DNA from: Candidatus Sumerlaeota bacterium
GTDB taxonomy: Bacteria > Sumerlaeota > Sumerlaeia > JADFCT01
DNA: 23,340 bases
NCBI GenBank assembly: GCA_026398575.1
Contig: JAPLSP010000692.1
Location: 1-23,340 of the forward strand
Reading direction: 5' to 3'
In this document: piece after piece, positions 7,612 to 21,811 of the stretch
How positions within the stretch are numbered: position 1 is the first letter of the stretch
Layout: every line of letters starts with the position of its first letter
Translations under genes and position numbers: made by a program
The notes under the pieces: model-generated
What the model was told of the DNA's origin: nothing
What the model saw: the letters and a program-made list of their open reading frames with translations, nothing else
The model's database searches: none

Positions 7612-7670
7612 ACAGGCAGAATCATTGAGGGCAGAATCATAATGATTCTGCCCTCAATGATTCTGCCTGT
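7612..7670. repeat. Perfect 29-base inverted repeat built from a 15-base unit
   Basis: The arms 7612-7640 and 7642-7670 are exact reverse complements around a single A at 7641. Each arm contains GGCAGAATCAT twice at a 15-base interval (7615-7625 and 7630-7640), separated by TGAG. It lies between convergent genes and could fold as a bidirectional terminator, although no strong T run follows. The same CAGAATSAT core at the same 15-base spacing recurs at 17136-17305, so this appears to be a repeat family and not a private terminator. Confidence 0.95.
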
Positions 7671-17135: not shown

Positions 17136-17305
17136 AAAACAGAATAATGCAAAACAGAATGATGCAAAACAGAATGATGAAAAACAGAATGATGAAAAAC
17201 AGAATGATGAAAAAGAGTATGATAAAAAACAGAATTATTCAGTTTTCATTCTTCCGATGTTCATGATCCCATTTTTTATCATTCTGTTTTTCATCATTCT
17301 GTTAA
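17136..17305. repeat. Array of 15-base units in direct then inverted orientation
   Basis: Seven head-to-tail units follow the pattern AAAACAGAATGATGA from 17136 to 17240; the first two end in GC, the sixth is AAAAGAGTATGATAA and the seventh ends ATTATTC. Two degenerate inverted units (17246-17275) and two clear inverted units (17276-17305, containing ATCATTCTGTT) follow. The whole can fold into a long imperfect hairpin centred near 17240. The CAGAATSAT core and 15-base step match the palindrome at 7612-7670. It is not a CRISPR array, because there are no spacers. Confidence 0.93.
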
Positions 17306-18894: not shown

Positions 18895-20478
18895 ATGGCT
18901 CAAGAAAGCAAATCCTGCCGGCAAGCCGGTATTCTGTTGCATCCCACGTCTCTGCCGGGACGCAGCGGCATTGGCGACATCGGGCGTCCCGCCTATGAAT
19001 TTGTGAAGTTCCTCATCGAGGGCGCGCAATCGCTCTGGCAGCTGTGTCCGCTGGGGCCGACCGGATATGGCGACAGCCCTTATGCGTCGCTGTCGGCGTT
19101 TGCCGGGAATCCCCTGCTGATCGGGCTGGAGCCGCTCGCGGACGACGGACTGGCGGACGCCTCGGAGATTGACGCATTTCCTGCGTTCCCGGCCGATCAT
19201 GTGGATTATGTCAACGTCACACCGGCCAAGATGGCTTTCCTGATGCGGGTGGGGCAGCGCTTTCCCGAGCGCGCGAACGCCGGCCTCAAAAGCGAGTTCG
19301 ATGCCTTTTGCGAAAGGAACCGGGGCTGGCTGGATGATTATGCGCTTTATGTGACGCTGAAACAATCTCATGGCGGCGTCGCCTGGACGCAATGGCCGGC
19401 GTCGCTGGCGCGGCGCGAGCCGGCGGCGATGAAGGAAGCGCGCCAGCGCCATGCCGCGCAAATCGCCGCCTGCAAAGTGATTCAGTTTCTTTTCTTCCGC
19501 CAATGGGCCTCGTTGCGGCGCTTCGCGAACGAACGCCAAATCCGCCTGATCGGCGACGTGCCGATCTTCGTGGCGCAGGATAGCGCCGATGTCTGGGCAA
19601 ATCCTCATTTGTTTTTCCTGAAGGACGACGGCGAACCGACCGTCGTTTCAGGCGTGCCTCCCGACTACTTCAGCCCCAGCGGCCAGCGCTGGGGCAATCC
19701 GATCTTTCGCTGGAAGGAGATGCGGAAAGACGGCTATGCATGGTGGATCGCGCGCATGAAAGCCGTTTTGGAACTGGTGGACATCGTCCGGATTGACCAC
19801 TTCCGGGGGTTTGAGGCCTACTGGGAGGTGCGCGCCGAGGCGCCGAACGCGCTCAATGGCCGCTGGGTCAAAGGACCGGGCGCCGATTTCTTTTTGAAAC
19901 TGCGCGATGCGCTGGGGTCGCTGCCGCTGATCGCCGAAGACCTGGGGATCATCACGCCCAAGGTGCACGCGCTTCGCGAGCAGTTCGGACTCCCGGGCAT
20001 GAAAATTCTCCAGTTCGCCTTCGGCGACGACGCTCGCAATCCCTATCTGCTGCACAATATCGAAGCCAACAGCGTCGTCTATACGGGAACGCATGACAAC
20101 GACACCACGCTGGGCTGGTATCGCGGCGCGGATGAGGCGGTCAAGGACAAGGCGCGCCGTTATTTGTGGTGCGACGGCGCCAACATCCATCTGGACCTGA
20201 CGCGCACGGCTTATATGTCGCGCGCGCGCATGGCCATCATTCCGTTGCAGGACGTGCTGGGCTTTGGCGGCGAAGCGCGCATGAATGTGCCCGGCGCGGC
20301 TGAAGGCAACTGGAAATGGCGCGTGACGCCGGATCATCTCAATCCCGGCAAGGCCGGCGCGCTGCGCTATCTGACGGAGTTATATGGCCGCAATGAACAT
20401 CCCCAGCCCGCGGCGCCGGCCAACGCGGAGGCGAGAGACCCCCGCTTCGATCCCGATCATGCGGCGGAAGCAGGATGA
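18895..20478 (+). CDS. malQ: 4-alpha-glucanotransferase (amylomaltase, GH77)
   Basis: A 527-residue cytoplasmic enzyme that moves alpha-1,4-glucan segments between maltodextrins during glycogen and maltose metabolism. The family pattern is complete: GILLHPTSLPGRSGIGDIG (12-30), LCPLGPTGYGDSPY (50-63), the nucleophile Asp301 in VRIDHFRGFE, the acid/base Glu348 in LIAEDLG and the transition-state Asp401 in THDNDTTLGW. The length matches the standard bacterial enzyme of about 500 residues, plus a Pro/Ala-rich tail of some 25 residues. ATG 18895 has AAGGGGG 7 bases upstream. Its stop overlaps the start of the carbon-nitrogen hydrolase gene by 4 bases (ATGA). No other maltose genes are in the window, so a role in glycogen turnover is a guess. 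Confidence 0.96.
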   Translation: MAQESKSCRQAGILLHPTSLPGRSGIGDIGRPAYEFVKFLIEGAQSLWQLCPLGPTGYGDSPYASLSAFAGNPLLIGLEPLADDGLADASEIDAFPAFPADHVDYVNVTPAKMAFLMRVGQRFPERANAGLKSEFDAFCERNRGWLDDYALYVTLKQSHGGVAWTQWPASLARREPAAMKEARQRHAAQIAACKVIQFLFFRQWASLRRFANERQIRLIGDVPIFVAQDSADVWANPHLFFLKDDGEPTVVSGVPPDYFSPSGQRWGNPIFRWKEMRKDGYAWWIARMKAVLELVDIVRIDHFRGFEAYWEVRAEAPNALNGRWVKGPGADFFLKLRDALGSLPLIAEDLGIITPKVHALREQFGLPGMKILQFAFGDDARNPYLLHNIEANSVVYTGTHDNDTTLGWYRGADEAVKDKARRYLWCDGANIHLDLTRTAYMSRARMAIIPLQDVLGFGGEARMNVPGAAEGNWKWRVTPDHLNPGKAGALRYLTELYGRNEHPQPAAPANAEARDPRFDPDHAAEAG

Positions 20479-21419
20479 AAATCGCCTGCGTGCAGATGGA
20501 TATTGCCTGGGAGGCGCCGGAAGCCAATTTGGCGAAAGCGCGTTCTCTCGTGGCGCAGGCGGCCCAATCCGGCGCCGAGCTGGTGTGCCTGCCTGAGTTG
20601 TTTTCCACCGGCGTAACGCTGAACGCTTCTCGGTTCGCGGAATCCGCCAACGGCGCCACGCCCCGCGCGCTGAGCGAGATAGCCGCGTCGAATGGCGTCA
20701 TGTTGATTGGGACTTATATCACCGCTGGGAGCGCGGGCGTCCCCGCCCGCAAAATGGCGCCGCGCATTATCACCTGCCAGGCCGGCGGGGACGCCTCCGT
20801 CCGCAAAGAGATGGCAGACTGCGTGTTTTATGAAACAGGCGAGAACGCTGCCGTATGCAAAGAGGCGGCGGATAGGATCGCCAATCATGCAGGCGAGGAC
20901 GCCTGCGCTCCCAGGGCGTTCAACACTTCAGGCGTGTGGGGGGCGGAGGGGCGGCTTATGGGGGTTTATCACAAGAACCATGTCTTTACTTATGGCGGCG
21001 AGCACATTGCTTATTCAAGCGGAGATGAGGCGCCGATTTTCCGGGTTGGCAAATTCGCGATGGGGCTTTTTATCTGTTATGATCTTCGTTTCCCGGAGAT
21101 GTTCCGCGCCGCTGTCGCCTGCGGCGCCGATTTGTTCGTGATTCCGGCCAACTGGCCGAATCCCCGCAAAGACCACTGGTTGACGCTGCTCAAAGCGCGC
21201 GCGATCGAGAACCAAGCCTACGTCATCGGCGTCAATCGCACGGGCGCATCGCCCTCGCATTCCTATTTCGGCGCGTCCCTGGTTGTATCTCCCCGCGGCG
21301 AAGTTCTTGCACAGGCGGGCGAAGGCGAAGAATTGTTGCTGGCCGATATCCATCCCGAAGAGGTCACATCGTGGCGCAACGAATTCCCCGCGCTGAAAGA
21401 CCGGAAAGATACAGCATAA
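20475..21419 (+). CDS. Carbon-nitrogen hydrolase (nitrilase superfamily, omega-amidase-like) with in-frame insertion
   Basis: A 314-residue amidase with the Glu-Lys-Cys triad: Glu41 in LPELF, Lys167 in VYHKNHVF and Cys201 in ICYDLRFPE. The stretch ADLFVIPANWP, then LLKARAIENQAYVIGVNR, resembles the YafV/Nit2 omega-amidase branch, which hydrolyses 2-oxoglutaramate-type amides. The substrate is not certain. Residues 84-147 do not fit the family. They are rich in Ala, Cys and charged residues and replace the short loop that normally links GTYIT to the FNTSGVW strand. They are encoded by a repeat element (20725-20914). Without it the protein would be about 250-260 residues, the usual length. The insertion lies between Glu41 and Lys167, so activity may survive if the loop is surface-exposed. 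The start overlaps malQ by 4 bases. Confidence 0.9.
   Translation: MKIACVQMDIAWEAPEANLAKARSLVAQAAQSGAELVCLPELFSTGVTLNASRFAESANGATPRALSEIAASNGVMLIGTYITAGSAGVPARKMAPRIITCQAGGDASVRKEMADCVFYETGENAAVCKEAADRIANHAGEDACAPRAFNTSGVWGAEGRLMGVYHKNHVFTYGGEHIAYSSGDEAPIFRVGKFAMGLFICYDLRFPEMFRAAVACGADLFVIPANWPNPRKDHWLTLLKARAIENQAYVIGVNRTGASPSHSYFGASLVVSPRGEVLAQAGEGEELLLADIHPEEVTSWRNEFPALKDRKDTA
20725..20914. repeat. 190-base palindromic element inserted in a coding sequence
   Basis: The left end CTGGGAGCGCGGGCGTCCCC (20725-20744, continuing GCC to 20747) is the reverse complement of the right end 20892-20914 at 21 of 23 positions. Inside, units starting GGCGGGGACG at 20784, GGCGAGAACG at 20838 and GGCGAGGACG at 20892 repeat with an exact 54-base (18-codon) step. 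Each of the first two is followed by a CGCAAAGAG/TGCAAAGAG segment. A more diverged unit precedes them. No transposase or stop codon occurs, so the reading frame passes through. Confidence 0.9.
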
Positions 21420-21811
21420 AGGGAATGAGCAATCACGTCGCCAACGCTCGCATATATTACTTCGGAATTCGTCGCAATCATTCAAGCAAGGGAATGAAGA
21501 TTAATGCGGATGGGAGAAGCGCCAGCATTTGGAGTGCGGTTGCTCGCTGCCGCTTTTGCTACCATGATCAAGAAGATTGGCGTTGGCAAAAGCGGCAGCA
21601 AGCAACCGCACTCCAAATGCTGGCGCCGCTTCTGACTGCATTGCAGTCATCCATTCAGCATAAATGCGTCGGCGGATTTGCGAGTCAAAGCAGCAAGGCG
21701 TTGGAATATTTGCGCTGGACGCTTGCCATGCGCGGCGCCAAACTGCGCTCGATTTTTGCCCATCGCAGCGGATCGCTCAATCCAACAGCTCATCTCGTGA
21801 GGGACAAGGGC
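21420..21811. other. Intergenic region dominated by a large inverted repeat
   Basis: This 392-base space lies between the hydrolase and the beta-helix gene. Positions 21420-21514 show nothing notable. Positions 21515-21648 hold the large palindrome and an abutting small hairpin. Positions 21649-21811 are an open but unconvincing upstream extension of the next gene's frame. Confidence 0.6.
21515..21633. repeat. Long inverted repeat (45/48-base arms, 26-base loop)
   Basis: The left arm 21515-21559 and right arm 21586-21633 are reverse complements except for one C/T difference and a 3-base GGC present only in the right arm. The arms contain GCCAGCATTTGGAGTGCGGT. The 26-base loop is 21560-21585. 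A perfect small hairpin GACTGCA-T-TGCAGTC (21634-21648) abuts the right arm. It could form a cruciform or a long RNA stem. Confidence 0.95.

Follow-up and report, generated by a model that had tools for sequence, protein, structure and literature searches.

REPs with GTAG or CGTC tags are hairpins, often arranged as inverted dimers, and are described in frame inside genes for enzymes that include DnaE (Di Nocera 2013, PMC3733652). According to that account, in-frame dimers or groups mostly encode 20 to 30 amino acids, and clusters in Thauera and R. conorii encode 43 to 82. It also covers Rickettsia palindromic elements (RPEs), described from Rickettsia conorii, which are palindromes located in frame in genes of likely functional proteins. 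REPINs were defined by Bertels and Rainey (2011, PMC3116915) in extragenic DNA of Pseudomonas fluorescens as inverted REP doublets linked to RAYT genes, and the doublet is there the replicative unit. The published layout places a RAYT gene between two inverted REPs (PMC2817692), an arrangement termed a REPtron in PMC3733652. For subclass 2.4 of TnpA-REP, a 2018 survey (PMC6006769) describes REP-flanked RAYT genes and frame-keeping REP insertions that its authors place in loops; the tag described for these REPs is GT[AG]G, and it is the transposase gene itself that receives them.

The window (the whole 23,340-nt stretch of DNA analysed) carries a 190-bp element in frame inside a carbon-nitrogen hydrolase gene. 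The element resembles each of these systems in part. It shares the inverted doublet and, through its repeat family in other genomes, the RAYT link with REPINs, but this copy is intragenic. Like the intragenic GTAG and CGTC REPs it lies in frame in an enzyme gene, but its tag, compared with the tag descriptions in that paper, is of CTGG type, and it contains an inner 54-bp tandem. Like the insertions of subclass 2.4 it keeps the frame, but its host is a metabolic enzyme. Its likeness to RPEs is one of description. We consider it very likely that the insert is a REPIN-type element, belonging to a RAYT-associated family with a CTGG tag and situated in a tolerant loop of the amidase. A translated insertion of REPIN type is an instance of a published kind; the repeat family that carries it is a variant, marked by the CTGG-type tag and by a repeat free of stop codons in all six frames. 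The preliminary description regarded insertion into an enzyme as unusual, but PMC3733652 reports it for REPs and Rickettsia RPEs, and we also observed it in DnaE, PriA and MmeI genes.

Structure of the element

Features of the window are as follows.

18895..20478, + strand: MalQ (4-alpha-glucanotransferase), upstream gene; PF02446, 581 bits; 4-bp overlap with the amidase start
20475..21419, + strand: carbon-nitrogen hydrolase gene (omega-amidase/YafV/Nit2-like), 314 aa; ATG at 20475, stop at 21417-21419
20725..20914, no strand: REPIN-type repeat element (very likely), 190 bp, in-frame insert; recognised by arms, period, alignment gap and repeat family elsewhere
20725..20751, + strand: left REP-like unit; tag CTGGGAGC, 7-bp stem 20733-20739/20744-20750, loop TCCC
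20784..20837, + strand: inner 54-bp unit 1, 18 codons; opens with REP core GGCGGGGACGCC in minus orientation
20838..20891, + strand: inner 54-bp unit 2; 33/54 identical to unit 1; degenerate REP core GGCGAGAACGCT
20892..20914, + strand: third unit, partial, inside the right REP arm
20888..20914, - strand: right REP-like unit, inverted; loop TCCT; 3 differences from the left arm

The element shows two inverted short hairpin repeats, heads outward, around a spacer. The terminal inverted repeats that the preliminary description gave as 21 of 23 matching are present and extend to arms of 27 nt (20725-20751/20888-20914), of which 24 are complementary; the highest value in 40 dinucleotide shuffles of the 901-bp region was 20 of 27. 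The left unit is assigned by its identity to a repeat family found in other genomes and by covariation in the stem of that family. The arms differ at positions 11, 19 and 24. Position 19 is in the loop, and positions 11 and 24 pair with each other, as G-C in the left arm and A-T in the right. As a single strand, the element folds more stably than all 200 shuffles (z -4.84).

The internal 54-base period is equally clear, with a self-identity at offset 54 of 0.543 versus a shuffle mean of 0.267, a value matched by none of 1000 shuffles at any offset from 30 to 89. Since 54 bp correspond to 18 codons, growth by whole units keeps the frame, and the unit starts at 20784, 20838 and 20892 are all in phase with the amidase ORF. 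The frame stays open across the whole element, as originally described, giving an ORF of 314 aa. An open frame is by itself unremarkable, since shuffling the element leaves 18% of frames open. The repeat ends, for their part, are free of stop codons whichever of the six frames is read.

The host gene and its relatives

PF00795 matches the amidase ORF in two stretches in a Pfam profile search. In an alignment of 70 sequences, E41 and C201 do not vary, and at least 90% of the sequences have K167; these three residues form the known catalytic triad of the CN-hydrolase family. With a Glu-Lys-Cys triad present and a nitrilase fold predicted, the protein has the characteristics of this family. G+C content is 65% in the 190-bp insert versus 59% in the remainder of the gene.

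Relatives of the amidase were compared by aligning the best 120 of 7,884 matches, query included. Residues 92-149 have no counterpart in any of the 119 other proteins of this set, which is the clean gap that the preliminary description had proposed to look for. The loop between the positions of Ile82 and Asn150 has 8 to 13 residues in 118 of the 120 proteins, most commonly 9 (97 of 120), versus 67 in the query. The earlier estimate was about 60 added residues; the net gain over the 9-residue loop is 58 codons, or 174 nt, rather than exactly 63 residues. One relative, P0086 (310 aa, known from its protein sequence), has 60 residues in the same loop, an insert of about 50 residues unrelated in sequence to that of the query. 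The long inserts of these two proteins indicate that one loop has acquired such inserts at least twice.

In AlphaFold2 the insert is modelled as a low-confidence excursion between strands 76-83 and 148-155 of a confident nitrilase fold, with mean pLDDT values of 91-99 in core blocks and 32-59 in insert blocks. A helix is predicted at 125-138 within this low-confidence sequence. These results bear out the proposal that an otherwise normal amidase carries an in-frame repeat element, and that such a repeat is able to reside in coding sequence. We infer that amidase activity is retained and that the insert is nearly neutral.

A different possibility is that the insertion inactivated the amidase, and that the gene is a decaying pseudogene whose frame is open by luck. 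The frequency of open frames in element shuffles leaves room for such luck, and the codon positions of the insert give no clear sign of selection. However, each half of the gene is open and conserved, all three catalytic positions are retained, and the model of the core has high confidence. We therefore regard a pseudogene as unlikely.

The overlap with the upstream gene suggests that MalQ and the amidase are likely in one operon. The closest amidase among 40 genomes is that of G041, a genome of the phylum of the Sumerlaeota MAG G001, at 43% identity overall, and proteins from other or unnamed sources among the best 120 of 7,884 matches reach 46-47%. G041 also has the best MalQ match among 46 genomes, at 58%, and another MalQ relative reaches 68%. 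For the sugar transferase of the window, the 12 top matches listed from 46 genomes all belong to the phylum of G001, with 45-52% identity and one at 42%; G001 itself gives a weaker match of 39%. Taken together, these matches make that phylum a probable placement for the host. Within P0123, a MalQ relative of 720 aa, a long stretch of MalQ is duplicated, which may be real or an assembly error.

Distribution of the repeat family

The family repeat is a REP-like hairpin with the tag CTGGGAGC, a 7-bp stem and a TCCY loop. The pattern GGGAGCGCRGGCGTCCYCGCCYGC occurs in at least 120 stretches of a species-genome collection, from at least 45 genomes as judged by record titles. Among the matches listed are Lentisphaerae, Kiritimatiellae, Verrucomicrobia (Opitutaceae and others), Acidobacteria, Bacteroidota, Armatimonadetes, Planctomycetes, Gemmatimonas, Chloroflexi, Alpha- and Betaproteobacteria, and Sumerlaeota. 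Whole-genome searches with a 21-nt form, allowing up to 2 mismatches, found 1-226 copies per genome in 38 genomes, versus 0-2 for the reversed pattern; all 38 were chosen for having at least one match, and several have few copies. Within the phylum of G001, copies are present in 9 of 40 genomes, with more than 2 in just G001 (76) and G072 (15), so the distribution in this phylum is patchy.

Stem positions 11 and 24 covary across 141 units, with G-C in 116, A-T in 21, G-T in 2 and A-C in 2 (137 of 141 G-C or A-T), although these units are not independent events because related genomes share copies. Among 137 units, the tag begins with C or T in 84% and with G in 2%. A GT[AG]G tag 5' of the hairpin defines the GTAG superfamily, and the window has CTGG at this place. 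The CGTC superfamily has a terminal CGTC and a stem that almost always begins with A-T pairs; the CGTC found in the unit here lies across stem and loop, and the first stem pairs are G-C. Among the titles listed in literature searches none concerned this repeat family, and none of those listed for TGGGAGCGC concerned REPs.

Grouping the units of 120 loci (up to 3 mismatches) gave 135 clusters, consisting of 77 single units, 47 head-out doublets and 11 others. Head-out (+-) pairs spanning 59-236 bp thus account, by raw count, for 47 of the 58 multi-unit clusters. The preliminary description took the 54-base unit to be what recurs, but the recurring unit is the 27-nt terminal hairpin. The matches listed from BLAST searches with the whole element come from 26 genomes of several phyla and, in one phylum, from 3 of 40 genomes; they cover only the ends, starting at 1-4 and ending at 26-45, or starting at 155-165 and ending at 185-190; the inner 54-bp units have no counterpart among them. 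This architecture recurs in one locus, L104, where a doublet encloses a 43-bp tandem that ends in the REP core. The other 12 doublets of at least 125 bp that were listed include none with an inner tandem as clear.

In other collections, a BLAST search of plasmids with the element returned 2 records with a partial 43-bp match (E 0.05), which were set aside, and nothing in the window matched Rfam at gathering thresholds. Among viral contigs, 14 matches in 13 stretches were read, and those in L001, L003, L006, L007, L009, L011 and L012 were judged REP-like. The matches in L002, L004, L005 and L010 were judged to be one unrelated coding sequence, and L008 and L013 fitted neither group plainly.

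Copies within other genes

A scan with a stricter pattern (2 mismatches), requiring an open frame through the cluster with at least 50 codons before and at least 30 after it, found 90 frames open through a REP cluster. Most of the loci scanned are from MAGs and carry a risk of assembly error. All 66 distinct frames of at least 480 nt were searched with Pfam at a domain cut-off of E 1e-4, shorter ones being left out. Twelve of the 66 have a Pfam domain, and in four the repeat is flanked by domains to either side: DnaE (L125, Sumerlaeota MAG), PriA (L085, Kiritimatiellae MAG), MmeI (L108, Prevotella MAG) and a glycosidase pair (L132). In the other 8 of the 12 the repeat precedes the domain or its position is ambiguous (L019, L111, L123); for the GlnD candidate L123, no solved relative was found.

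Alignments to solved structures place extra residues at 253-340 of DnaE versus 238-252 of the template, at 257-331 of PriA versus 234-239 of the template, and at about 190-210 of MmeI. In DnaE and PriA the extra stretch exceeds the length of the REPIN and is thus explained only in part by the repeat. A comparison of translated frames, which left out L197 because its transposase is on the other strand, showed that the repeat ends are read in differing frames in DnaE, PriA and MmeI. Because the ends are translated in different frames and are free of stops in six, the peptide itself is not the conserved feature.

This bears on the possibility that the insert is a lineage-specific domain or loop with its own function, composed of 18-residue repeats whose palindromy in DNA is incidental. 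The open frame, the period of exactly 18 codons and the predicted helix fit such a domain, as does the distribution of changes between the two full 54-bp units, which are fewest at codon position 2 (10, 3 and 8 at positions 1, 2 and 3). However, position 3 does not have the most changes, the helix is placed in sequence of low confidence, and the 27-nt ends are a genome-wide repeat elsewhere that is translated in differing frames in the three genes above. In addition, in a search of 5.8 billion proteins the insert peptide matched itself alone among 22 candidates. A functional domain is accordingly quite improbable, and the same codon-position counts lend no support to the selection for an insert that had initially been suggested.

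In L132:1351-3891 (minus strand), a single repeat unit at about residue 545-552 stands between two glycosidase domains in one open frame. This pair is perhaps a read-through fusion of two genes.

Association with RAYT transposases

Y1 transposases were found in 28 of the 30 genomes searched, in 25 of the 26 from the repeat-bearing set, and in all three repeat-free genomes (G041, G044 and G051). Two genomes, G026 and G072, carry the repeat and gave no Y1 match. Because various kinds of Y1 gene are very widespread, co-occurrence is weak evidence, and position is better evidence. We therefore examined 50 Y1 loci, comprising 30 returned by the search and 20 picked mostly for a profile match from about position 39 on. 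The HUH motif itself was detected in 28 of these, and a repeat lies within 900 nt of one in 10 of the 50, leaving 40 without. The repeat or its stem variants occur on both sides of a RAYT gene in 6 of the 50 loci, from 5 genomes, and 44 are unbracketed, both being raw counts.

Bracketed RAYT loci: L192, L197, L203, L206, L207, L208; genomes G018, G034 (two loci), G010, G001, G030

In L208 and L197 the stem flanking the RAYT gene is the left-arm stem of the window. Stem variants predominate beside the RAYT gene in L192, L203, L206 and L207, and in the first three of these they take the place of the exact stem of the window. L206 and L208 score above the NCBIfam cut-off for NF047646 (REP-associated tyrosine transposase). 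The association with RAYT genes comes from these other genomes, and the element of the window was probably mobilised by such a transposase.

Some RAYT genes are themselves in frame inside other genes. L228:4627-8193 is an MmeI gene with five MmeI domains, the last ended by the contig edge, and has a RAYT (85.6 bits, cut-off 80) and a repeat doublet in frame between the methyltransferase and the TRD. In L236:88-3336 (minus strand), from another genome of the same family, a RAYT (88 bits) lies in frame within the methyltransferase domain of MmeI; the repeat that flanks it is a different one, and the cassette sites differ between the two genes. In L229:1338-4052 the repeat is in frame inside CbiG, and a RAYT (88.7 bits) is fused after CobM. 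In L230:2539-6489 a RAYT of 76.1 bits, below the cut-off, is in frame inside a DUF1156 methylase gene. Among 121 genomes of the family of G016, 6 proteins exceed the RAYT cut-off and 2 of these 6 are in frames of more than 1,000 aa. Whole in-frame RAYT cassettes in two MmeI genes are a more surprising result than the amidase insert. A search for literature on MmeI with RAYT found nothing relevant by title. The 2018 survey, by its own account, excluded unusually long proteins (PMC6006769), which may be why in-frame cassettes drew no notice.

The size and ends of the element also fit the general description of a MITE, 70-300 bp with inverted ends of 15-30 bp (PMC3733652), which would be mobilised by an ordinary DDE transposase with terminal inverted repeats. 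However, no target-site duplication is visible by eye at the one site available (junctions ATCACCG/CTGGG and CCCAG/GGCGTT), and each end is itself a hairpin with a covarying stem. Moreover, 77 of the 135 clusters are single units, and RAYT genes are bracketed by the repeats. A MITE is thus very unlikely. An assembly chimera, in which misassembly joined in the repeat, is the least probable explanation: the window appears to be one whole 23,340-base contig and repeats are a known cause of misjoins, but the two parts of the amidase join as one gene, with the frame exact and the insert at a single position in the loop, and a misjoin would rarely restore both.

Proposed origin of the insert

The reading as a REPIN-type element draws on the REP-like hairpins at its ends, their presence in many genomes, the head-out doublets, the covariation and the RAYT bracketing elsewhere. 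A RAYT transposase (HUH/Y1) would most likely have carried a doublet, ancestrally about 82 bp long, into the amidase gene, where it would have landed in frame at the tip of a beta-hairpin loop. The inner 54-bp unit, comprising spacer plus core, may then have tripled, extending the element from 82 to 190 bp; 190 - 2 x 54 is 82 bp, within the observed doublet range of 59-236 bp. The enzyme would tolerate the approximately 58 extra, probably disordered, residues. Ends free of stops in six frames would help copies to persist inside genes.

A broader idea, which we consider possible but doubtful, is that the CTGG-tag REP/RAYT family is adapted to coding genes, with REPINs and RAYT cassettes as translated passengers, MmeI as a favoured home, and the transposase expressed within a host fusion protein. 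A testable form of this idea is that the family can enter genes in any frame because its tag is without the stop codon present in the usual GTAG. The amidase insert adds a clear case to the little-studied mobile repeats that survive through translation, and links it to a repeat family of several phyla that has a non-canonical tag and probably a transposase as its partner. For annotation, such inserts, and RAYT cassettes in MmeI genes, may resemble novel domains.

Other repeats in the window

Just 3' of the amidase, at 21503-21642, is an inverted repeat with 57-nt arms that are 86% complementary and separated by a 26-nt gap. A 15-bp tandem array of AAAACAGAATGATGA, with inverted copies, occupies 17136-17303, and a perfect 29-nt palindrome at 7612-7670 has a CAGAATSAT core similar to this array. 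The array and the palindrome perhaps represent a second repeat type.
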